This document shows positions 6,064 to 23,283 of a stretch of DNA of 64,000 nucleotides, piece after piece. Source of the stretch: Candidatus Krumholzibacteriota bacterium (GTDB lineage: Bacteria > Krumholzibacteriota > Krumholzibacteriia > JAJRXK01). A program made the translations under genes and the position numbers. The first letter of the stretch is position 1. Every line of letters begins with the position of its first letter. The notes under the pieces were generated by a model that was given only the letters and a program-made list of their open reading frames with translations, made no database searches and was not told the origin of the DNA. The DNA is taken from assembly GCA_029262065.1 (NCBI GenBank), contig JAJDAC010000018.1, forward strand, positions 62,001 to 126,000, read 5' to 3'.

Positions 6064-6600
6064 CTAGAGAGACTTCAACGCGGCCAGCACCACGGCCGGG
6101 TCTGGATGATCGCCGGCGTAGCCGCTGAGACTGACGTACGGCACCGAGCCGTCGGGTCGAATCACGAACACGCCGCCCAACTGAAGGGCGTCGCCCTTGA
6201 TTTCCGTCTGCTTGAAACCACGGGCCATGACCCCAATTGCCTTCAGGAATACGACGGGGTTCAACACGCGCCAGATACTGCGCTTGGCACCCACCGCGGC
6301 ATAGGCTGCTCTCGACGGGTCGGTTACGACCGGCGAGTCCATATCGAGCTCGTCCACCAGCCAGCGGGCATGCTCAACGGTTCCGTTGCCAAGCACGATC
6401 AACTCGGCCCCGGCCGCTCGAATGTCGCCAATCTTGTCACGCAACTGCGTGACCTGCTCTCGGCAGAACATTCAGCCAAAGTGTCGAATCATGGCCAGAA
6501 TGACGGGCTGATCCTGCCAAAACTCGCCTAGGCGCACGGTTTGGCCGTCCGATCGCAGCACCGACATCTGGCTCAGCGTTTTCGTGTCGACGGAATTCAT
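6064..6600 (-). CDS. Candidate selenoprotein: peroxiredoxin-like (AhpC/TSA_2, PRXL2) protein with in-frame UGA
   Basis: Read through one TGA (6472-6474), the frame encodes 178 residues of the AhpC/TSA-2 thioredoxin-fold family. It begins [12 protein letters not shown], then [11 protein letters not shown]43-MFC46-REQV, and ends in [25 protein letters not shown]. The family normally has HFGCxFCRE, so the UGA falls exactly on the first redox cysteine, giving a U-x-x-C centre. The ATG overlaps the stop of the preceding methyltransferase as ATGA, the same coupling as elsewhere in this operon, so the start is firm. A 7-bp hairpin follows the UGA at SECIS distance. The protein probably reduces peroxides or disulfides made during lipid modification. 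The alternatives are a nonsense mutation or a sequencing error. No Sec-insertion genes are in the window. Confidence 0.82.
6436..6453 (-). promoter_or_regulatory. SECIS-like hairpin downstream of the in-frame UGA
   Basis: In the mRNA, GUCACGC-AGUU-GCGUGAC forms a perfect 7-bp stem with a four-base loop. The stem starts 18 bases after the UGA and the loop starts 25 bases after it. A G is among the first two loop bases. These features fit the bacterial SECIS consensus as I recall it: loop 16-37 bases from the UGA, a short stem, and an early loop G that contacts SelB. A second, weaker CUGC/GCAG hairpin lies between the UGA and this stem. Confidence 0.65.
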
Positions 6601-7637
6601 TTCGCCTCGACTTTCGGGGCAAAGAGGTAGTGAGACACTATCCACTCACGGCCCTGCCGATAGTTGAAGAGTTCGGCGCAGGCCATGAAGAACATACGCC
6701 AACGCGAGCGCCAACGCACAACCTGGCTCGGACCGTAGATACGACCGAGAGCGTCGTCGACCTCGTCCCGCCGGAAATCCATGTTCGCCAGCCACGCCTC
6801 GGCCGTGCGTCCGTAGTGCGTTCCGTCGACCTGCCAACGCTGTTGTAGCGTTAGATCCCGCTGGAAGTGCTCCAACAGATCATCCGAAGGCATGATGCCA
6901 CCAGTAAAGAAGTGGCGCGCCATCCAGTCTCCGGGCCCATCGGCGTCGAACAGGTAGGCGTGCTCCCGATGACTGAAAATGTGTACGAAGAGCCGCCCAT
7001 CCGGATGCAGGTGGCTCGCCACCTTCGATAGCAGCGCTTCGTAGTTTCGCATGTGCTCGAACATCTCCACCGAAACGATTCGGTCGAACCGATGCCCCAG
7101 GTCCAACTGATTCACATCGCAGGTTACCACCCGCAGGTTGCCGATCTTGCGGCGACGTGCCTCCCACTCGATGAACGAACGCTGGCCTTGGGAATTGCTG
7201 ACGGCAACGACCTGGGCGCGCGGAAACCGCTCGCAAGCCCACAACGAAAACGAGCCCCAGCCACAACCCAGATCCAGGATCTCCATTCCGTCTTCGACCT
7301 GAGCTCGCTGGGCGTACAACTCGAGCATTCGCTGCTCGGCCTCGTCGAGATTGGCCACATCGGTATCCCAATAGGAGCCGCTGTACTTGAGATGCTTACC
7401 CAGAACCTGGCGATAGAACTCAGCCGACACCTCGTAGTGCTGCTCGTTGGCAGCATCGGTATGAACGGCCACCGGCGATTCCCGGAGGCTCTGCACCAGG
7501 CCCAGAAACCGCTCTCTCCGCGCCTCATCGGTGAGCGATCCAAACCCCGCCAGCCGATCGGCCAGCCGACGGCGAATCCCGGCCCGAATGAGAGCATCGG
7601 GAACCAGTCCCCGCTCGAGCAACCCCTCGTACCACAT
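6597..7637 (-). CDS. SAM-dependent methyltransferase, cyclopropane-fatty-acid-synthase-like
   Basis: The 346-residue product has the CFA/mycolic-acid methyltransferase core: [24 protein letters not shown], motif [35 protein letters not shown] and [15 protein letters not shown]. It lacks the extra N-terminal lipid-binding domain of true CFA synthases. The acidic residue of MFEH and the His of FVHIFSH are both present. ATG 7637 overlaps the DUF1295 stop (ATGA). Related proteins methylate acyl chains or other lipid-like substrates, and the exact substrate is unknown. It is the second methyltransferase of this operon and directly precedes the candidate selenoprotein, with a 4-base overlap. Confidence 0.88.
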
Positions 7638-8431
7638 CAGTCGTTGCCCTCCTTGGGAAACCACGGGAAGAACGGACTGGTCGTGCGTTGATACTCGCGG
7701 TACGCATCTCCCCGACTCTTGAGCGACTGAGCCTCGGTAGGCGGAATACCCGTGACACGAAGAATGAAGAACAGAATCAACGCGGGGCCAGTCCAGGCCA
7801 ACAGCCCGATCAAGCCCGACGTGGCGCACAACGCAAAGCCCAGCCAGATGACCCACTCGAAGAAATAGTTCGGGTGGCGCGAATATCGCCAAAGGCCAAC
7901 GTTGCAAACGCGTCCGCGACTGTCAGCCTGCGCCTTGAATGCGGAGAGTTGGCGGTCGGCAATGGACTCGCCAACCAGGCCCACCAACCACAGGCCGGCT
8001 CCCACCCACTCGGTGATCTGCAAACCAGACTGCGTTCGCGACGCCGTGAGCAGAAACGGAAGCGAAAGGATTGCCGCCAGCAGAGCCTGAGCCTGAAAGA
8101 ACACCAGAAAGAACCGCTGTTCGTGCGGGCTCCAGTTCGTTCGCAAGGTCACGTATCGACCTTCTTCCGGACGCCCCAGGATACGATCGACCAACAGATG
8201 CCACGCCAGACGCAACCCCCAGAAGCCCGCGGTGACCCCAGCCAACACACGGTGCTCCACGCCACCGTTGGAAGCCAACGCATAGAACACCCCCAACGCC
8301 CCAAGCGCGGTGGCCCAGCCCACGTCGACAATGCCCGCATTACCCGTACGCAGTTGTAGTGCCCACAGGGCCAACATGAACCCCGCGGCTCCCAGCCAGC
8401 CCCATAACAACAATAGCCAATCAACACTCAT
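7637..8431 (-). CDS. DUF1295 membrane protein (steroid 5-alpha-reductase-like)
   Basis: A 264-residue polytopic membrane protein with about six to seven hydrophobic helices. The C-terminal half has the DUF1295/steroid-reductase signature: [32 protein letters not shown] and a terminal [20 protein letters not shown]. Relatives reduce double bonds or methylate lipid substrates in the membrane. Which reaction applies here is not known. ATG 8431 overlaps the cfa stop, and its own stop overlaps the next start. Such tight coupling in a lipid operon supports a role on the same acyl chains. Confidence 0.88.
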
Positions 8432-9669
8432 TGCCGTATCCCCGCTGGCCGAACTTCTTTGTACAGGAGCAATTGGGAAACATTGATCCGCTCCTGGCGA
8501 AACCCGCCCTCACAGTAGGAAAAGTAGAACTCCCACAAACGCAGGAATCGATCATCGAATCCCAATTGACGCGCCGCCGATGCGTTCCGCAACAGATTCT
8601 CGCGCCAATGTCGCAGGGTTTGCGCGTAGTGCTGAGCAATGTCTTCCGCGTGTGAAACGCTCAGATTCGTCGCGCGGTGCAACGAGCGAGAAATCTCGGC
8701 CCGCGAGGGGATGCACGACCCTGGGAAGATGTACTTCTTGATGACGTCCACGGTCCGACGCGCCGGGTGGAATGCATCATCGGCAATGGTGATGGACTGC
8801 AAAAGCATCTGACCACCCGGCCTCAATCGCTCCGAACAAACGCCAAAGAACGTATCGAAGTACTCGTATCCCACGGCCTCGATCATCTCGATCGAAACCA
8901 GTTTGTCGTATTGACCAGTGAGGTCTCGATAGTCCTGCATGATGATGGACACCCGGTCCTCCAACCCCGCGGCTCGCACTCGAGCAAGCGCATAGTCATA
9001 CTGCGCACGTGAGATGGTAGTACCCGTAACGCGGCAGCCGTACTCACGAGCAGCGTGTATGGCGAACCCACCCCAACCACAGCCGATTTCCAACACGTGA
9101 TCGTCGGGTCCCAGATTCAATTTGCGGCATACGACGTCAATTTTTTCACTGGAGGCTTCTTCCAACGTGGCGCGCTCGCTGGGAAATATTCCGCAGGAAT
9201 AGGCCATCGTCTTGTCGAGAAACAACTCGAAGAACTCGTTGCCCAGATCGTAGTGCGCGTGGATGTTCCTGCGTGATCCCTGGCGGGTGTTCTTGCGCCA
9301 AGCGTGCGAGAGGCGTTGCATCGGCGCCGCCAAGCGACCCCAACCGCCCCGCATCCGATCCAGAAGCGGACCGTTGGCGCTCATGATCCCAAACAACGAA
9401 CTGAGGTCGTCACATGTCCAGAGGGAATCAAAATACGACTCGGCCGCGCCGATACTGCCACGCAACAACACCGCGGGGTAGAACGCCGGATCTCTTATTT
9501 CCACGATCACCGGCGGCACAGTAGCGCCCGCCTCCGACCCAAACCAGGTTTCGCGCCCGTCTTCTCGAAAACACAACTGACCACCACGCAGACCGAACAT
9601 CAACGACACCAAAGCTCGGCGAGCCAAACGCTGGGACAACGACCCTCGATCAGGCACTGGGAACCTCAC
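8428..9669 (-). CDS. cfa: Cyclopropane-fatty-acyl-phospholipid synthase family methyltransferase
   Basis: The 413-residue product has full CFA synthase architecture: an N-terminal lipid-binding region (ESYFDSLWTCDDLSSLF), then HAHYDLGNEFFELFLD, motif I HVLEIGCGWGGFAIHAA (residues 191-207), SIEMIEAVGYEYFDTFF and KKYIFPGSCIPS. It would transfer a methyl group from SAM to unsaturated acyl chains of membrane phospholipids. The Glu of the MFEHVG motif is kept (Glu264), but the His of the E. coli LLHTIG motif is Gln here (Gln291) and the following Gly is Thr. This suggests the UfaM-like or other non-canonical branch rather than classic ring formation. Its start lies 20 bases inside the DUF1365 gene. 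Confidence 0.9.
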   Translation of the reverse strand: MRFPVPDRGSLSQRLARRALVSLMFGLRGGQLCFREDGRETWFGSEAGATVPPVIVEIRDPAFYPAVLLRGSIGAAESYFDSLWTCDDLSSLFGIMSANGPLLDRMRGGWGRLAAPMQRLSHAWRKNTRQGSRRNIHAHYDLGNEFFELFLDKTMAYSCGIFPSERATLEEASSEKIDVVCRKLNLGPDDHVLEIGCGWGGFAIHAAREYGCRVTGTTISRAQYDYALARVRAAGLEDRVSIIMQDYRDLTGQYDKLVSIEMIEAVGYEYFDTFFGVCSERLRPGGQMLLQSITIADDAFHPARRTVDVIKKYIFPGSCIPSRAEISRSLHRATNLSVSHAEDIAQHYAQTLRHWRENLLRNASAARQLGFDDRFLRLWEFYFSYCEGGFRQERINVSQLLLYKEVRPAGIRQ

Positions 9670-10429
9670 GCTCTCTCTTGGATGGATGGGAATAGAACGG
9701 ACAACGTTTGAGCCACAGTCGAAACGCCTGGAAATGAATGCCCCAAATGATTCTTGCGGTAAGAAAGGGGTACCGGAACAGAACCCGTCGAAGCGCTCCG
9801 GAACCTATCTCCGCTCGCTTCATGGTCAAACCCACCGAAAAGAAACCCTGCCTCTGCCGGGAATTCTGCATTCGCACACGAAGTTGATCGGCCGGTTCGT
9901 TCAACGCCCAGTCGTACTCGCAGTCCATATCGATGAAGGGCGAAACGTGGAATTCCTTGTCGAAGCGAAACTGCAAACCGCTCGCGTTCGCGCTACACGA
10001 ACGGCTCAGCACGTATGCGTGCCGCTCGCGCCAGGGCGTATTGGTGATTTCCGCCACCACGGTTTCCACGCGCTCGCCCCTTGGATCGAAGCAGTAGTAG
10101 AAACTCACGGGGTTGAAAGAGTATCCGAAGTACCGAAGGTTGGTGAGCATTCGGATCGGGCCGCTCGGGCGCTCAAAGCCGCGTTCGGCGACCAGGTCTC
10201 GTACCGCCTCATCCAATGGCACCTTGTGCGGGCCCAGGAAATCACTTCTTCGGAACCAGGCCCAACCCGGTCGCTCCAACGACCAGAAACGTGACTTCGC
10301 GAAGACCCGCGAGAGCTCGTCAAGATCAAGGTAGACCATGAACAACGACACGTTGAACTCATGCTCCACCGGACTCATGCGCCGATGGAAGACGTTCCCC
10401 TCGTAAAGACAGCTGGCCAGTGGGCTCAT
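9650..10429 (-). CDS. DUF1365 protein
   Basis: The product has 259 residues and matches DUF1365: YEGNVFHRRMSPVEHEF at the start, FLGPHKVPLDEAVRDLV, RMLTNLRYFGYSFNPVSFYYCFD, EITNTPWRERHAYVL and FRFDKEFHVSPFIDMDCEYDW. The family's reaction is not established. It almost always sits between a COG2907 flavoprotein and a cfa-like gene, exactly as here, so it probably acts in the same acyl modification. ATG 10429 overlaps the flavoprotein stop as ATGA. Confidence 0.9.
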   Translation of the reverse strand: MSPLASCLYEGNVFHRRMSPVEHEFNVSLFMVYLDLDELSRVFAKSRFWSLERPGWAWFRRSDFLGPHKVPLDEAVRDLVAERGFERPSGPIRMLTNLRYFGYSFNPVSFYYCFDPRGERVETVVAEITNTPWRERHAYVLSRSCSANASGLQFRFDKEFHVSPFIDMDCEYDWALNEPADQLRVRMQNSRQRQGFFSVGLTMKRAEIGSGALRRVLFRYPFLTARIIWGIHFQAFRLWLKRCPFYSHPSKREREVPSA

Positions 10430-11664
10430 GTAAGGCTCCGCTCGAATCGACGACAAACGGCCAAGGCACTCTTGACCCCGTCTTCGTGGAAGCCGAAGCC
10501 CCAATAGGCACCGCAGAACGAAATTGGACCCTGGTTCACTTCGTCCTGCCGTGCCTGAGCCGCCACGGACTCACGAGTGTACACGGGATGCTCGTACACC
10601 AGATCACGAATCACGTGCTCGGGAGCCACGTCCCCGTTCGAGTTCAGACTCACCAGATACTCATCCTGGGTGTCCAGACTCTGCAGCCGATTCATCGAGT
10701 ACGTCACCGAACTCTGGTCGTGCGGGGACGAAGGGATGCGGTAGTTCCAACTCGCCCACGCCCGTTGGCGTCGGGGCAGAAGGGAAGTGTCCGTATGCAA
10801 ACGCACGGCGTTGGGTTGATAGCGGGTTGCCCCCAGGACTTCGCGTTCGCGCGCGGTCGCGTCGTCCAACATGGCCAACGACTGATTGCTGTGGGTGGCC
10901 AGAATGGCATGATCGAAATCGATCGATCCAGATACGTCCGTAGCCACCCTGACTCCGTTTTCGATTCGTCGTACGGAGCGAACTGGGGTCGAAAGGTGAA
11001 TTCGTTTGCGAAACGGTCGCGTCAGCGCATCGACGTAACGGGAAGACCCGCCTTGTACGACTCGCCACTGCGGGCGACCCCTGATTTGCAGCATGTCGTG
11101 GTTGGACATGAATTCCACCAGATAGCGAATGGGAAACTCCCGAACCTCGTCTGGGGGCAAGGACCACAGCGCCCCGGTCATGGGGAAAAGATGATGCTCC
11201 GCGAACGAACTGGAATAGCCTCGGCGATCCAGGAACTCGCCGATGCTCAGATCGTCGCCTTGAAGAAGACCCGGCGCCTCTTCAAAGAAACGCAGAATCT
11301 CGCGCAGCATCCGATAGTGGCCGGGACGCAGGAGGTTTCGACGCTGCGCGAAAAAGCTGCTGAGGGAAGAGCCCCGATATTCGAGTCCCGTGCGGTCGCA
11401 CTTCACACCAAAGCTCATGTCGCTGGGCTGGCTGGGAACTCCCAGTTGGTCCAGCAACCGACAAAAATTGGGGTATGTCTTCGGGTTGAACACAATGAAT
11501 CCAGTATCTACTTGGTGTTCACCATCGTGGGCCTGGACGGCTACCGTATTCGTATGACCGCCTACGTAGTCATTCGCCTCGAACATGATGATCTCGTGCT
11601 GTTCGCGAAGCAGATGGGCACACACCAGGCCCGAAATTCCCGAACCTATGATCGCGATTCGCAC
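10426..11664 (-). CDS. NAD(P)/FAD-dependent amine-oxidase-like protein (COG2907)
   Basis: A 412-residue flavoprotein with an N-terminal FAD dinucleotide-binding motif (RIAIIGSGISGLVCAHLL) and ribose-binding Glu in MFEANDYVGGHT, then VDTGFIVFN, TGLEYRGSSL, VVQGGSSRYVDAL and a C-terminal SFCGAYWGFGFHEDGV FAD-closing motif. COG2907 proteins accompany cfa-like and DUF1365 genes and are candidate desaturases or oxidases of acyl chains. A homologue is part of the singlet-oxygen regulon in Rhodobacter sphaeroides. The start is GTG 11664, five bases after the symporter stop. Confidence 0.9.
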   Translation of the reverse strand: MRIAIIGSGISGLVCAHLLREQHEIIMFEANDYVGGHTNTVAVQAHDGEHQVDTGFIVFNPKTYPNFCRLLDQLGVPSQPSDMSFGVKCDRTGLEYRGSSLSSFFAQRRNLLRPGHYRMLREILRFFEEAPGLLQGDDLSIGEFLDRRGYSSSFAEHHLFPMTGALWSLPPDEVREFPIRYLVEFMSNHDMLQIRGRPQWRVVQGGSSRYVDALTRPFRKRIHLSTPVRSVRRIENGVRVATDVSGSIDFDHAILATHSNQSLAMLDDATAREREVLGATRYQPNAVRLHTDTSLLPRRQRAWASWNYRIPSSPHDQSSVTYSMNRLQSLDTQDEYLVSLNSNGDVAPEHVIRDLVYEHPVYTRESVAAQARQDEVNQGPISFCGAYWGFGFHEDGVKSALAVCRRFERSLT

Positions 11665-11669
11665 GGGAA

Positions 11670-13085
11670 CTACCTACGGTCAACGAGGCGCCGACGGCGC
11701 CGGACCAGCAGTGCCTGGACTCGCCGATGACGTTCGTCGGTAAGAGGCGCGAAGAACAAGAAGCTACCGCCCAGAAGAAGAAAGCCTCCAACCCCGGGAC
11801 CGAACAACCAGGCCAATCGTTGCGATACCTCAGCACTCTGGGCGCCCAGCGATTCGTCAAACCCGATGGCCGATAGCATCAGGCCCGCCAAGACCAGACC
11901 GAAGGCACGAGAGAGTTTTGTACCCATCTTCCAGACTCCGAAGTACAGGCCCTCGCGGTGTTTCCCGGTCTTCAATTCGTCATGGTCAACCACATCGGTC
12001 ACCATGGATTCCAGCAGAATGAGAGCCCCACCCAGCAGACCACCGATCACCGCTATTGCCGTGGCGCCACCGCGTTGCCCCGGCCCCAGGAACAAGTAGG
12101 CCGCCGAAACCAGGATGCCCATGCCAAATACACCCACCATGGCTGGCCGCCGCTTCCCCCACCGTTGGCTGATCCAGATCCACGCCGGAATCGAGGCCAG
12201 GATGAAGATGAAGAAGGGCATCAGGACCCAGAGGATCGTCTCAGACTCGGGTATCTGTAGACGGTATTCGTAGAAGTACAGCGCAATGGATGCATTGAGG
12301 GCCCGGCCCACACCAGCTACCACGAACGCGGCCAACAACGGCAGGAAAATGCGGTTTCGAAGCACTCCGAGCTGGGATCGCAGCAGCGTGGAGACTCTGA
12401 GTGGCGGTCGCCGCACCGCCGGGGGCTCGGGACGATCGAGGCCGCGGGTACTTCGCACGGTGATCCAGGCGGTGAGTAGAATGGGACCCGCCAACAGGAA
12501 GCTGGTGAGGCTACGCGATACGGCCACGCTTGCCGAACTGGCCTCATCCCCCACCCATCGCAGCACCATAGCGGGCAGCAGAGTGCCCACCATCAGACCC
12601 GCGGTGGTGAACAATCTACGGTATCCGAATATCTGGGTTCGCTCGTCCCGGTCGAAACTCATCTCGCCGCCCAGCGCGATATGGGGCACCGAAATGACCG
12701 TCATGGCGGTGGTGAGGGCCAGGTAACTCACCGTAAGGAACGCGAACTTGAACAAGGACGAGTCCAGCGAAGGCGGGTTGTAGATCAGGATGAGCGCGGC
12801 GGCCAGGGCGAAGGCCCCGGGAAGGATGTAGGGACGACGCCGACCGGCCGGGGAGCGCGTGCGGTCTGAGATCTCTCCCATGATGGGATCGCTCACCGCA
12901 TCCCAGATCATCGCCAGTGCCAATGCCGCCGCGGTCAGATGGGGAGCGAGTCCCACCGTCACATTGTAGAACTTCAGCAGGTACAGCTCGACGAGTACCT
13001 CGACGGCCACAAGTCCCAATTCGGCCGAGCCGTATCCTAGCTTCGTCGACCAGGAGAGCGACTGCCTTGTGCTGGAAAGCAGCAT
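11670..13085 (-). CDS. GPH-type (MelB-like) major facilitator transporter
   Basis: A 471-residue, twelve-helix protein of the glycoside-pentoside-hexuronide:cation symporter family. It has WDAVSDPIMGEISDRTRSPAGRRRPY (the loop 2-3 signature), VPHIALGGEMSFDRDERTQ and, late, a VDHDELKTGKHREG motif like those of MelB relatives. Members of this family also occur in cfa/DUF1365/flavoprotein operons, where they may move lipids rather than sugars; that is inference. The start is uncertain: ATG 13085 gives the usual family length, while the open frame extends to 13220 with ATGs at 13133 and beyond. No ribosome site favours either. It is the first gene of the seven-gene operon. Confidence 0.85.
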   Translation of the reverse strand: MLLSSTRQSLSWSTKLGYGSAELGLVAVEVLVELYLLKFYNVTVGLAPHLTAAALALAMIWDAVSDPIMGEISDRTRSPAGRRRPYILPGAFALAAALILIYNPPSLDSSLFKFAFLTVSYLALTTAMTVISVPHIALGGEMSFDRDERTQIFGYRRLFTTAGLMVGTLLPAMVLRWVGDEASSASVAVSRSLTSFLLAGPILLTAWITVRSTRGLDRPEPPAVRRPPLRVSTLLRSQLGVLRNRIFLPLLAAFVVAGVGRALNASIALYFYEYRLQIPESETILWVLMPFFIFILASIPAWIWISQRWGKRRPAMVGVFGMGILVSAAYLFLGPGQRGGATAIAVIGGLLGGALILLESMVTDVVDHDELKTGKHREGLYFGVWKMGTKLSRAFGLVLAGLMLSAIGFDESLGAQSAEVSQRLAWLFGPGVGGFLLLGGSFLFFAPLTDERHRRVQALLVRRRRRLVDRR

Positions 13086-13283
13086 GGGCGCAGTGTACAG
13101 GACGCCAGCCAATGTGGCGCGGGCTAACCCCATTGAGCCCGTTTGACGGGACCCTTCCGCCAGTAGGACTCCCCCCGATCCCCATGCGGGCCCACTCGCA
13201 GTAGCATCCTCTGGCATCACCGGAGCGCGAGAGAGCCCCTCCTCTCGGCCGCCCTCGTAACCACGCTACCCGGAGATGAAGCC

Positions 13284-14917: not shown

Positions 14918-15519
14918 TCTACCCCACCACCTTCTATGCCCTTCGGGGCCGATGAAGCCAACGACTCGCGTACGACCGTAAGCCCGCGTCGTATGTACGA
15001 CTTCACCGTTCCCAGCGGCAATCTCATGCGCTCGGAGATTTCACCGTGGGACATGCCTTCCACGACGGAAAGAATGACCACGCGGCGTTGTTCGGGTTTC
15101 AGCTCTTTCAGAGCCCGCATCGCCAAAGATGCTTCTGCACTGCGTTCGATGCGCTCGTGCTCATCGCTGGAAAAGTCCATTTCCTCGGGAATTGCCATGG
15201 TCCGGGGCCTTCTGTCCCGGGCCCGAAGGCGGTCTATCATGCGCCGTCGGGTGACCATGGCTACGAACGCCACCTCAGAAGACCGTCCAGGTTCGAAGCG
15301 GCTTGCGTTCTTCCAGAGATCGAGGAACACCTCCTGCACCGCGTCTTCGGCGTCGGCCGGCGACGGGACCATGCGCCTTACGATTGACCATACGAGGTTG
15401 CCGTACTTGTCGATGCACGCCTTTACCGCGCCATGATCGCCATTTGCGATCCGAAGCAGAAAGGAGTCCTCGGCTCCTACGGGATCAAGCTCTCGCGGGT
15501 CAGCCACTACTGATCCCAA
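14914..15519 (-). CDS. ECF RNA polymerase sigma factor
   Basis: The 201-residue product has region 2 (IDKYGNLVWSIVRRMV..DAEDAVQEVFLDLWKNASRF) and region 4 (LKPEQRRVVILSVVEGMSHGEISERMRLPLGTVKSYIRRGLTVV). It directs polymerase to a stress regulon. It overlaps the B12-binding protein gene upstream by 20 bases if TTG 15519 is used; GTG 15507 is an alternative start. Translational coupling with a B12 photoreceptor-like gene and a small anti-sigma gene recalls light-responsive sigma systems such as LitS or CarQ, although the target promoters cannot be named from this window. Confidence 0.88.
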   Translation of the reverse strand: MGSVVADPRELDPVGAEDSFLLRIANGDHGAVKACIDKYGNLVWSIVRRMVPSPADAEDAVQEVFLDLWKNASRFEPGRSSEVAFVAMVTRRRMIDRLRARDRRPRTMAIPEEMDFSSDEHERIERSAEASLAMRALKELKPEQRRVVILSVVEGMSHGEISERMRLPLGTVKSYIRRGLTVVRESLASSAPKGIEGGGVE

Positions 15520-16633
15520 GCAACCGCGCGCCCTCGGGTACGGCGTCCGACACGCTCGCCGCGAACCCGTCTGCCCCTACTCGACGCCACACAGTGGGGT
15601 CGGCCTGAAACGCGAGCCCCCCCACGAGCACCTTGATACCCGGTGAATGCGTGCGAACCTCAGCAATCGCATCCCTCAACGCCGTGAGATGGGTCACGAG
15701 CGTGGCCGAGAGCAACAACAGGTCGGCATCAAAGCCTCGGACGGCCAAGGTGAGGTTCGTGGCAGGCATATGTCCGCCCAGGCTCAGTGACCGCCACCCA
15801 GCCATTGCGAAGAGATCCATGATCATGCGAATTCCCAACTCATGCTGATCGTCACCCACCGCCGAGCCCACCACCAACTTGTCGATGGTCTCCTGGGGGC
15901 GAACTCGTTCTGCGAGCAAGGTCAGCAACGAGTGGGTGGCCGCCGTAACCACGTGCTCTTCGTGGATACCGAGCTGACCCAGATGCCATAGTCGTCCTAC
16001 TTCCCGCTGCGCGGGCGCGATTACTTCGAAGTAGGCGGACCTGACATCCAAGCCGTTCTCGGTGGCCTGAAGAATCTGGTCCATCGCCCGCCGGGTGTCG
16101 CCTGAAAGGCACGCCTCGATGTAAGTCAGCGCCATGCGGCCATGCTGGCTGGAAGGGTCGAGACCGGGGGTGGTTGCGAGTGGTGCCTCAAACACTTCGA
16201 GCCCACGCGCGCAGTACTCAGGAATGGGATCACGGGCGTGCTCAGGAAGGTCGTGCGTCAGCACGTCAGTCAAGCACTCCAGACTGGCTCGCAAGTCGTC
16301 CTGGGGAAGATCGCGAGCGGCGAACGACTCGCGCGCCCATTGAACCGAAGCCACGAACAAGTCGGGGGATTGCATTTCCACGGCCACGGCCAGCTCGCGA
16401 ACCCGGACCGTGAGATTGGCTTTCCAGGCGCTGAAGGCATCGGAGCCGAAACGTTGAGCCGCCTCAGGATGCTTTTCGCAGAATTGGCTGGCCGCAAAAC
16501 CCGCGTAGGCGCCGGCACTGCCGTTGAGCAAGCTGGCCGCGAGGAGTCCGTTGTCCGACACGCCATTGCCTCCTGGGCGTTGGGAGTTGCCCGGGAAGGA
16601 TACCCCAGCCGAAGCGGTCTGACCAAAGGGCAT
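15500..16633 (-). CDS. Free-standing cobalamin-binding (CarH-like sensor) protein
   Basis: A protein of 377 residues with no DNA-binding domain. Residues about 155-245 form the helical cap domain and 250-375 the Rossmann B12 domain. The cap has W216-x9-E226-H227, the Wx9EH signature of light-sensing CarH/LitR proteins. The Rossmann part has D262-Q-H264-E-L-G267, the DxHxxG cobalamin motif with His264 as likely lower ligand. The N-terminal 150 residues resemble a second helical region. It resembles AerR/PpaA-type B12 proteins that signal by protein contact. Coupling with the ECF sigma gene suggests it controls that sigma factor or its anti-sigma protein in response to light. Confidence 0.8.
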   Translation of the reverse strand: MPFGQTASAGVSFPGNSQRPGGNGVSDNGLLAASLLNGSAGAYAGFAASQFCEKHPEAAQRFGSDAFSAWKANLTVRVRELAVAVEMQSPDLFVASVQWARESFAARDLPQDDLRASLECLTDVLTHDLPEHARDPIPEYCARGLEVFEAPLATTPGLDPSSQHGRMALTYIEACLSGDTRRAMDQILQATENGLDVRSAYFEVIAPAQREVGRLWHLGQLGIHEEHVVTAATHSLLTLLAERVRPQETIDKLVVGSAVGDDQHELGIRMIMDLFAMAGWRSLSLGGHMPATNLTLAVRGFDADLLLLSATLVTHLTALRDAIAEVRTHSPGIKVLVGGLAFQADPTVWRRVGADGFAASVSDAVPEGARLLGISSG

Positions 16634-18280: not shown

Positions 18281-19318
18281 ATGGCCAAGACTTCGCACCG
18301 CGTCGCAATCGTAGGGGCCGGACTGGCTGGACTGGCCGCCGGAAGGAGGCTCCGGGACAGCGGATGGGACGTTACTGTTTTCGACAAGGGCCGCGGTCCG
18401 GGAGGTCGGTCTTCATTGCGTCGCCGCGATGGTTTCGAGTTCGACCACGGAGCCCAATATTTCACGGCCCGTAGTGCTCAGTTCCTCGGGCTGGTCGAAA
18501 AATGGCTCGACGACGGAATCGTGGACCACTGGAATCCCCGCTTGTGGGTATTCGAGCAGCAGTCTTGCTCTCCTTCGGACTCGTCCACAAAGCGCTACGT
18601 CGGAGTGCCCGCCATGAACGTCCTTGGACGATCTCTGAGCGAGGGCCTTGATGTGCGCCAGGCCATCCGCGTGGGCGCGATCACGGCTTCTTCTACTACT
18701 GGCAACGCCCGATGGTCGGTGTCGGACGACGAACAACGGCTACTGGGGCACTTCGATACAGTGCTCGTAACCGCACCGCCTGCGCAGGCCGCACCACTGC
18801 TGCAACCAGCCAAGGGACTGGCTTCAGAGATTGGCGCGACCCCGATGGTTCCGTGTTGGGCAGTGCTGGTGGGATTCGATTCCGCGTTGGACGTGGAGCT
18901 CGACGCTGCGTTCGTAAACCATGGACCCATTCGTTGGATTGCCCGCAACACTTCGAAACCGCTACGCAGTGGCGGCGAGGCGTGGGTCATCCACGCCAGC
19001 GATGTCTGGTCGATCCAGAACCAGGAGCGTCAGCGCGATGCGGTGGTCGAACTGCTTTGCCGTGAACTCGAGAGGCTGATGGCGCGCAGCGGGCAGGAAG
19101 AAATTCCCGGAATCAAATCGGTTCATGCCCACCTGTGGCGCTACGCCCGGCCGCGCGACGAATGCTCGGTAGGCTGCATGTTCGACGACGATCTGCAACT
19201 GGGCGCCGCGGGGGACTGGTGCATGGGCGGTCGTATCGAAGGCGCCTACCTGAGCGGGTGTGCTCTGGCCGAACGAGTGATCGCCTCTACCAGTGGCCCG
19301 TACCTGGCTCGCCCTTGA
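18281..19318 (+). CDS. Renalase-like NAD(P)/FAD-dependent oxidoreductase
   Basis: The 345-residue product has VAIVGAGLAGLAAGRRL as its FAD-binding motif, then VFDKGRGPGGRSS, FDHGAQYF and a C-terminal LGAAGDWCMGGRIEGAYLSGCALAERV, matching the COG3380/renalase group. Such enzymes oxidise reduced nicotinamide derivatives or related small molecules. They often occur in light- or singlet-oxygen-induced clusters, which fits this location. Its 3' end overlaps the DUF427 gene on the other strand by 32 bases. Confidence 0.88.
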   Translation: MAKTSHRVAIVGAGLAGLAAGRRLRDSGWDVTVFDKGRGPGGRSSLRRRDGFEFDHGAQYFTARSAQFLGLVEKWLDDGIVDHWNPRLWVFEQQSCSPSDSSTKRYVGVPAMNVLGRSLSEGLDVRQAIRVGAITASSTTGNARWSVSDDEQRLLGHFDTVLVTAPPAQAAPLLQPAKGLASEIGATPMVPCWAVLVGFDSALDVELDAAFVNHGPIRWIARNTSKPLRSGGEAWVIHASDVWSIQNQERQRDAVVELLCRELERLMARSGQEEIPGIKSVHAHLWRYARPRDECSVGCMFDDDLQLGAAGDWCMGGRIEGAYLSGCALAERVIASTSGPYLARP

Positions 19319-21040: not shown

Positions 21041-21225
21041 GGAATTCCTCCTATGGAGAGTCTGAGTTGATGTTCACAAGACGATTCGTTCACTGGTGGC
21101 GTATTGGATCCAAACTATCTACAAAAACTATACAGATATCATTCAATCGTACTTAACTCGTTATTTCTCAATATGCATCCCGCAAATAACCTTGACAGAA
21201 CTTAGTCACTGACTACCTTTTGGAC
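21041..21225. promoter_or_regulatory. AT-rich divergent promoter/operator region of the B12 regulator
   Basis: Strikingly AT-rich against the surrounding DNA. On the plus strand TTGACA (21192-21197) is followed by the perfect 6-1-6 palindrome TAGTCA-C-TGACTA (21203-21215) and a weak -10 (TACCTT) just before ATG 21226. There is no Shine-Dalgarno sequence, so a leaderless message is possible. An operator between -35 and -10 is the MerR-family arrangement. Direct repeats AAACTATCT and AAACTATAC (near 21112 and 21125) could serve the minus-strand operon. Confidence 0.55.
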
Positions 21226-22155
21226 ATGGAGACTACAGCATCACACCCCATTCGCGTCGTCGCCTCCCGCACTGGCCTGAGCGCCAATCGCATTCGCATG
21301 TGGGAGAAGCGATACGCCGCCGTGGTTCCGCATCGGACCGCCACGAAGCGTCGCCTGTACACCGACCACGATGTGGAAAGGCTGGGCCTCTTGCGGCGCG
21401 CCACTGATCGCGACCGTACGATCGGTCAGGTAGTGTCGCTTTCGAATGAGGAACTGCGGTCCATCATCGCCGGCGATCGGATCGGCAGCTGGCCGAGTGA
21501 AACGACGACTTCAGAGCTGGAAGAGGCGCGGGCCATTCGCACCTGGTGCACACGTGCCATTTTCGATCTCGATGAAGAGCGTCTAAGGCAATTGCTGGCG
21601 CGGGCCGAGGTCAGCCTGACTGGCGAGGTGCTGATCGAACATCTGGTAGTGCCTTTGATGACCGAAATTGGAGAACGGTGGCGCGACGGAACGCTGCAGA
21701 TCATGCACGAACATATGGCTTCGGCATTGGTGCGATCGCTTCTTTCGCGACTCACGCAGATCCATCGGCCAATCGCGGGCGCACCACGTCTCGTTGTAGC
21801 GACTCCGGTCGAGCAACTTCACGAACTAGGAGCATTGGTCGTATCGGCCACCGCAGCCTCGGAAGGCTGGCGAACCCTGTATCTTGGTACAAGCGTTCCA
21901 GCGCGAGAAATTGCTGACGCAGCCGAGCAGGTGAAAGCCAATGCCGTGGCCCTGAGCCTGTCCTACAACGCATCACTCGACGGCCTTCTGCATGAAGTGC
22001 GGGACCTCAGAGACATCCTGCCCGGATCCGTCGAGCTCTACGTCGGCGGAGGAATCACGGCCGATGTGCGCATTGCCCTCGACCACGCCAACATCCAAAT
22101 CCTGGGCAGCCTCGCCAATCTGCGCGAGCGCCTGAGAGGAGTGCGGTTCAAGTGA
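21226..22155 (+). CDS. MerR-type transcriptional regulator with cobalamin photoreceptor domain (CarH/LitR-like)
   Basis: The 309-residue product has an N-terminal MerR helix-turn-helix (IRVVASRTGLSANRIRMWEKRY, then RLYTDHDVERL), a helical cap (100-175) and a B12 Rossmann domain (185-305). The cap carries W152-x9-E162-H163, the signature of light-sensing CarH. The cobalamin loop reads QLHELG with His199 as likely axial ligand; the Asp of the usual DxHxxG is Gln. CarH/LitR proteins bind DNA as adenosylcobalamin-loaded tetramers in the dark and fall apart in light. The operator-like palindrome just upstream suggests autoregulation. A TTG six bases upstream was rejected in favour of ATG. Confidence 0.87.
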   Translation: METTASHPIRVVASRTGLSANRIRMWEKRYAAVVPHRTATKRRLYTDHDVERLGLLRRATDRDRTIGQVVSLSNEELRSIIAGDRIGSWPSETTTSELEEARAIRTWCTRAIFDLDEERLRQLLARAEVSLTGEVLIEHLVVPLMTEIGERWRDGTLQIMHEHMASALVRSLLSRLTQIHRPIAGAPRLVVATPVEQLHELGALVVSATAASEGWRTLYLGTSVPAREIADAAEQVKANAVALSLSYNASLDGLLHEVRDLRDILPGSVELYVGGGITADVRIALDHANIQILGSLANLRERLRGVRFK

Positions 22156-22577
22156 TCCTACTTTCACACGCCCTTGCAACTCTGCTGATGTGCGGCGTCA
22201 TCTGGTATGTGCAGTTGGTGCACTACCCGTTGTTCGACATGGTCGGACGCCGCGGCTTCGAACAATATGAACGCGCGCATGCGCAACGCACCACCTGGGT
22301 CGTGGCCCCACTCATGTTGCTGGAACTCGCCACAGGCCTGGCCTTGGCCGCAAGTTCTACCGTAGACACGTGGAAGAGCGTCACTGGGCTCATCGTGCTC
22401 GCAACCATCTGGATAGCCACCGCCTTCTGGCAGGTGCCCTATCATCGCGCGCTGCAGATCGGTTTCGACAAGCATATCCATCGCGCTCTCGTGCGCTCCA
22501 ACTGGTTTCGAACGGGTGCGTGGAGCCTGCGGGCCGTACTGGTACTCACCATGTTGGCGAGTAGCGTTGGATCCTAG
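22152..22577 (+). CDS. Small integral membrane protein
   Basis: A protein of 141 residues with four hydrophobic segments: roughly 3-20, 47-68, 76-95 and 118-138. It has YVQLVHYPLF near the N-terminus and FWQVPYHRALQIGFDKHIHRALVRSNWFRT. The spaced His residues could hold heme or metal, but this is only a possibility. The GTG start overlaps the regulator stop as GTGA, so it is translationally coupled to the light-sensor gene. I do not recognise a named family with confidence. Confidence 0.75.
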   Translation: MILLSHALATLLMCGVIWYVQLVHYPLFDMVGRRGFEQYERAHAQRTTWVVAPLMLLELATGLALAASSTVDTWKSVTGLIVLATIWIATAFWQVPYHRALQIGFDKHIHRALVRSNWFRTGAWSLRAVLVLTMLASSVGS

Positions 22578-22608
22578 TCTTCCCCCTTCACACCTCCTGG
22601 AGAGCATC

Positions 22609-23283
22609 ATGACCAAGCGAATCATCATCGTCGGCGCAACTTCTGGAATCGGGAAGGCGTTGCACGATCGTATGACGTCGAAGGATTGGGAAGTCATTGC
22701 GTTCAGTAGAAGCCACGAACCGTCGGTCGACGTAACCCAGGACGCTCCCCCGTTTCCCTCGATCGAAGGCCCGGTCCACGGCCTCGCTTATTGTCCGGGT
22801 TCCATCAACCTCAAACCGTTCACCAGCTTGACCATCGAAGACTTCCGTGACGACTTCGATGTGAACGTGCTGGGTGCGGTACGCACCTTGCAGCAATACC
22901 TACCCAACTTGAAGCAGGCCGAAAATGCATCGGTGGTCCTGTTCAGCACGGTGGCCGTACAGGCGGGTATGGGCTTTCATGCCAGCATCGCCGCGGCCAA
23001 GGGCGCCGTGGAAGGTCTCGCGCGATCATTGGCCGCGGAACTGGCTCCTGGCATCCGTGTGAACGCGATCGCCCCCTCGCTTACCGACACCAACATGGCG
23101 CAACGACTCCTGCGCACCGATCGGCAGAGAGAAGCGGCGTCCAAGCGACACCCCTTGGGACGCATCGGCAACGCGGACGACGTGTCCGCCGCCGCGGAAT
23201 TCCTCTTGAGTGCCGAGTCATCGTGGATGACGGGCCAAGTTCTTGGCTTGGATGGCGGCATGTCAGCACTGCGTATGATCTAG
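22609..23283 (+). CDS. Atypical short-chain dehydrogenase/reductase
   Basis: The 224-residue SDR has IIIVGATSGIGKAL as its nucleotide-binding motif, AYCPGS in place of NNAG, catalytic-type Ser113 and Lys131. The catalytic Tyr of YxxxK is Ile127 (SIAAAKGAVEG). It ends in GQVLGLDGGMSALRMI. Loss of Tyr means classic dehydrogenase chemistry is unlikely unless another residue substitutes. GGAGAG precedes ATG 22609. It is third in the operon regulator, membrane protein, SDR. SDR genes of this type accompany LitR/cfa clusters. Confidence 0.85.
   Translation: MTKRIIIVGATSGIGKALHDRMTSKDWEVIAFSRSHEPSVDVTQDAPPFPSIEGPVHGLAYCPGSINLKPFTSLTIEDFRDDFDVNVLGAVRTLQQYLPNLKQAENASVVLFSTVAVQAGMGFHASIAAAKGAVEGLARSLAAELAPGIRVNAIAPSLTDTNMAQRLLRTDRQREAASKRHPLGRIGNADDVSAAAEFLLSAESSWMTGQVLGLDGGMSALRMI

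Follow-up and report, generated by a model that had tools for sequence, protein, structure and literature searches.

The interrupted gene and its operon

The window (the whole stretch of 64,000 nucleotides of a Candidatus Krumholzibacteriota contig that was analysed) contains on its reverse strand a peroxiredoxin-like gene in which, when TGA is translated as selenocysteine (Sec, U), the only internal stop among 178 codons is the TGA at codon 43 and the terminal stop is TAG (Table 1). The first-pass annotation of this DNA had described such an AhpC/TSA_2 gene, and both translation and Pfam confirm it. Specifically, the product matches AhpC-TSA_2 at 7e-17 (62.3 bits, with a gathering cut-off of 27 bits) and, as a second match, AhpC-TSA at 7e-12. 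The start had been placed at an ATGA overlap with the upstream gene, and indeed the stop of the CMAS-type gene ends at 6597 and the ATG begins at 6600, with GAGG upstream of it. The mechanical ORF call yields a 135-aa fragment beginning MFCRE, as had been anticipated for a plain annotation.

Table 1. Genes and RNA features of the window
Feature	Position	Strand	Details and basis
Predicted Sec peroxiredoxin-like gene (AhpC-TSA_2 / SelL-related)	6064..6600	-	178 aa, HFGUMFCRE; translation, Pfam, NCBIfam
In-frame TGA (predicted Sec43), first position of U-x-x-C	6472..6474	-	translation; homologue codon comparison
Bacterial SECIS-like hairpin GUCACGC-AGUU-GCGUGAC, 7 bp	6436..6453	-	folding, pairing comparison, covariation
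CMAS-type SAM methyltransferase	6597..7637	-	Pfam CMAS 1.5e-41; ATGA overlap with Sec gene
DUF1295 / steroid-reductase-like membrane protein	7637..8431	-	Pfam
CFA/CMAS methyltransferase, ufaM position and type	8428..9669	-	Pfam CMAS 9.6e-88; order as in PMC7380195
DUF1365 protein (family of fatty-acyl oxygenase UfaO)	9650..10429	-	Pfam 3.2e-82; ATGA overlap with upstream gene
FAD-dependent amine-oxidase/phytoene-desaturase-like protein (UfaD-like)	10426..11664	-	Pfam
MFS_2 transporter, possible first operon gene	11670..13220	-	Pfam; 5-nt gap to next gene
B12-binding protein	15500..16633	-
FAD oxidoreductase	18281..19318
B12-binding protein, MerR/CarH-like regulator	21220..22155	+
SDR protein	22516..23283

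The gene stands last in an operon with the order MFS_2 transporter (a possible first gene), FAD oxidoreductase, DUF1365 protein, CFA-type methylase, DUF1295 protein, CMAS-type methylase and selenoprotein. The operon is tightly packed, and its genes overlap from the FAD gene onward. Furan fatty acids are made in Rhodobacter and Rhodopseudomonas by UfaD, which binds FAD, by UfaO, a DUF1365 protein, and by the methylase UfaM (PMC7380195). Comparison of the Pfam matches with that work places the UfaD, UfaO and UfaM families in the window in the same order. On the basis of these families and their order, the operon genes are probably of the furan-fatty-acid type.

Decoding of UGA43

The codon of residue 43 was compared among relatives, a check that the first-pass annotation had proposed. 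The scan of named genomes took the best 80 of about 550 relatives as loci, and the comparison set comprised 84 non-redundant close relatives, the window gene included. TGA is found at this codon in 63 of the 84 and TGC or TGT in the remaining 21, i.e. UGA occupies the position of a redox-active cysteine that other homologues encode as such. A relative of the same class (44% identity) also has TGA at this codon and reads HFGUIFCRE, while the closest gene from the same family, that of G003, has Cys at the site and is distant (about 30%). In a maximum-likelihood tree the Sec forms are spread over Myxococcota, Acidobacteriota, Chloroflexota, Thermodesulfobacteriota, Nitrospirota, Actinomycetota, Sericytochromatia and the phylum of the window, with about 9 changes between Sec and Cys, at least 4 of which are forced by well-supported branches. 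One further locus, L020 (G008:C1:682235-682441), has two TGA codons (HFGULFC...VQURD), the second of them in the hairpin loop region; it adjoins a masked N stretch, and the second TGA is either another Sec or a sequence problem.

Downstream of the UGA there is a hairpin with the two features expected of a bacterial SECIS element, a position shortly after the UGA and a G within the first two loop bases. The hairpin starts 18 nt and its loop 25 nt past the UGA, with G at loop position 2. The 7-bp hairpin with an early loop G that had been described was found, and it is covarying and specific to the TGA members. The folding energy of the 60 nt starting at the UGA is −25.8 kcal/mol, and shuffled versions average −15.4 (z = −3.96; none of 200 shuffles as good). 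In the SECIS search suggested earlier, Rfam returned no matching SECIS family for the hairpin at gathering or relaxed thresholds. Since Rfam gave no match, the hairpin was judged by comparison among relatives.

Standard pairs fill 94% of the hairpin pair cells in the TGA genes versus 46% in the Cys homologues, and controls in which the pairing partner was slid gave 13–58%. The loop AGUU is present in 58 of 63 TGA genes and in 2 of 21 Cys genes. A formal count on 16 representative sequences found 96.4% of cells paired and 3 of 7 pairs changed on both sides, a covariation score matched by 1 of 500 shuffles; such counts are inflated by related rows, and better controls are provided by the Cys homologues and the slid partners. 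Where the hairpin encodes Leu, the codon is TTG in 59 of 62 cases, as compared to 6.5% of the other Leu codons in the same genes. TTG already makes up 31% of the Leu codons in the window's own operon, so it is the relatives that carry this argument. In four Desulfobacteria (L092, L104, L106 and L109) the TGA is kept and the AGUU hairpin sequence is missing, and their SECIS must therefore differ. Because the relatives keep both the TGA and the hairpin at the same place, the combination is beyond chance.

The genome containing the window (5.77 Mb, 59 contigs, 95.6% complete) was searched for selA, selB, selC and selD, whose absence had been named as grounds for discarding the selenocysteine reading; all four are present. 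SelB scores 354 bits (above cut-off), SelA 468 bits and SelD 336 bits, SelD carrying a single TGA of its own in YASAAGUAAKL. The tRNA-Sec has the anticodon TCA and scores 71.6 bits, in agreement with ARAGORN. The same genome also holds a second AhpC/TSA-like gene with an in-frame TGA (L032, G000:C15:6875-7159, minus strand; FYRGVWUPHCN). It may encode another UxxC selenoprotein; its N-terminus resembles a signal peptide, and a hairpin follows the UGA.

Could the TGA be a true stop in place of a Cys codon, in a pseudogene or through a sequencing error? TGA is one base off TGC and TGT, and the 3′ part alone is callable as an ORF, but TGA recurs in three quarters of the relatives across many phyla, the remaining frame is intact, the hairpin covaries and the Sec machinery is complete, which leaves this explanation with a negligible chance. 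Sequencing error in particular, an objection already raised in the first-pass annotation, is excluded in practice, since dozens of unrelated genomes carry TGA at this codon. It is just as hard to credit that TGA is reassigned genome-wide or read by a suppressor as another residue (Trp, Cys). It would take no more than a TGA-decoding tRNA to open the frame; however, the only TCA-anticodon tRNA seen, in a search short of a full genome tRNA survey, is a clear tRNA-Sec accompanied by SelA, SelB and SelD, neighbouring genes stop at TGA (e.g. the CMAS gene at 6597), and the hairpin is specific to TGA members. The conserved TGA, the covarying hairpin and the tRNA-Sec thus led to the rejection of all three readings, pseudogene, sequencing error and stop reassignment.

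We infer that UGA43 is, near certainly, decoded as selenocysteine: SelB with tRNA-Sec(UCA) and the downstream hairpin would read it so. Judged from sequence, the gene is very probably a real selenoprotein gene, with actual Sec insertion as a prediction. A gene that plain annotation truncates would thus encode a genuine selenoprotein, and its insertion signal is well conserved.

The operon link and a possible function

The first-pass annotation had tied the selenoprotein to a cfa/DUF1365 operon, and this link recurs in other lineages. At L044 the order FAD-DUF1365-CFA-selenoprotein is found on the same strand with tight packing. Genes of the ufa type lie near Sec homologues also in L053, L104 and L106, and a CMAS gene alone is near the one in L036. 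Of the 50 genomes that carry a Sec homologue, 25 have a single DUF1365 gene each, and in 4 of these 25 it lies within 7 kb of the Sec homologue as compared to 0.07 expected (P about 1e-6); the four cases amount to about three independent ones because two are related Desulfobacteria. In the other 21 DUF1365 is not near the Sec homologue, and the remaining genomes have no DUF1365. As most Sec homologues are away from DUF1365, a lipid role may not be general. No paper connecting selenoproteins to DUF1365, furan fatty acids or photolyase came up in the literature search. The link is undescribed in the literature searched, and the operon context looks like the new part of the finding.

Near several of the relatives there is a gene for a DNA photolyase or for a B12-binding MerR regulator. 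The window encodes two B12-binding proteins within 16 kb of the operon, of which the second is like the MerR/CarH regulators, and no photolyase was found in the window. An FAD oxidoreductase gene and an SDR gene lie near them, and together these genes possibly form a light-response island. In Vibrio cholerae blue light induces genes of the photolyase family as well as a gene for a CFA synthase (PMC5241685). The gene context points to photo-oxidative stress and suggests that the Sec gene may be under light or oxidative control.

Some 22 of the Sec relatives, most of them in Myxococcota, exceed 400 aa, and those examined are fusions with a C-terminal short-chain dehydrogenase. Such SDR-fused selenoproteins (about 510 aa) are encoded at L034, L036, L041, L052 and about 18 other loci, some with a photolyase, an SRPBCC protein or a MerR-B12 regulator in the neighbourhood.

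The AlphaFold2 model of the window protein is a confident thioredoxin fold (pLDDT 93.8). Its top Foldseek match is human prostamide/prostaglandin F synthase (9usa, TM 0.81), whose C44 and C47 correspond to U43 and C46 and which is also the best solved match by sequence; further matches are PrxQ/Bcp, AhpE and ResA. The product would be a thioredoxin-fold U-x-x-C enzyme of the PRXL2 / SelL-related type. Together with the operon that precedes it, the enzyme most probably takes part in lipid chemistry, and the recurring link to probable furan-fatty-acid genes suggests lipid-peroxide detoxification. In such a scheme Sec43 would attack peroxide bonds in oxidised or O2-modified acyl chains, i.e. the enzyme would be a lipid hydroperoxide or endoperoxide reductase, Cys46 would resolve the Se-S bond, and a thiol system would re-reduce the enzyme. 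It may thereby protect modified membrane lipids under (photo-)oxidative stress. We regard this lipid-peroxide role, with its presumed substrate and reductant, as fairly plausible. Alternatively, the Sec enzyme could provide the DUF1365 oxygenase with reducing equivalents; for UfaO the reductant is unknown (PMC7380195).

It deserves some credence that the selenocysteine reading is right and the enzyme is nevertheless a general thiol-disulfide oxidoreductase or a small-peroxide scavenger, placed behind lipid genes incidentally. Most homologues are away from ufa-type genes, the same-class relative (L018) is beside hemC, and Prx Q, AhpE and ResA are also among the fold matches. Against an incidental place stand the excess of DUF1365 adjacency, the same-strand tight packing in both the window and L044, and the fact that the nearest solved structure in both sequence and fold is that of a lipid endoperoxide reductase. 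That the Sec enzyme is a dedicated partner of the ufa-like pathway is a tentative proposal. Equally doubtful is the fuller version, in which a Sec lipid-(endo)peroxide reductase serves the furan/cyclopropane pathway alone, giving electrons to the DUF1365 oxygenase or cleaning up after it, and belongs to a light-stress module with photolyase and B12-photoreceptor genes. For the many UxxC Prx-like selenoproteins that are uncharacterised, the finding offers a testable role, in the chemistry of lipid peroxides alongside enzymes for furan/cyclopropane fatty acids. What reduces UfaO can now be asked directly of the Sec protein.

Relation to known systems

Prostamide/prostaglandin F synthase (PRXL2B) is the best PDB match by sequence and fold and has CxxC at the position of U43 and C46. 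However, it is a human, Cys-based protein about 20% identical to the window protein, and its substrate is not directly transferable. The only NCBIfam match is SelL_rel_redox (NF040769), near full-length at 117 bits, which misses the curated cut-off of 120 bits by 3 bits; the TGA-bearing relatives L105 (189 bits) and L034 (149 bits) exceed it. An ufa-like operon is absent from the literature found on this family. SelL selenoproteins are Prx-like and were reportedly described by Shchedrina et al. in 2007. Both SelL and the window protein are Prx-like with Sec at the first motif position, but the latter has a single TGA and the motif UMFC, i.e. one Sec (UxxC) where SelL proper has two (UxxU), and the two were likened by motif. 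SelL proteins occur in both eukaryotes and bacteria (PMC2398784).

Prx-like thiol:disulfide oxidoreductase selenoproteins of pfam00578 with UxxC or UxxU have been listed, as has an AhpC/TSA selenoprotein of pfam13911 with UxxS (PMC9312934, PMC13188914, PMC1088965). The window protein shares the superfamily and the UxxC motif with the former and differs from the latter, having UxxC and its best score in AhpC-TSA_2. The UxxC Prx-like selenoprotein is thus a known, widespread kind, bacterial UxxC Prx-like and SelL-type proteins being already published (PMC2398784, PMC9312934, PMC13188914). The novelty was thus overstated in the first-pass annotation, since the protein kind is in the literature and has a neighbouring NCBIfam family; what looks new is the cfa/DUF1365 operon link, of which no description was found. 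With ufaD-ufaO-ufaM the operon shares, on the basis of Pfam, the families and the order FAD enzyme, DUF1365 protein and CFA-type methylase; it differs in adding the DUF1295 protein, a second CMAS-type enzyme and the selenoprotein.
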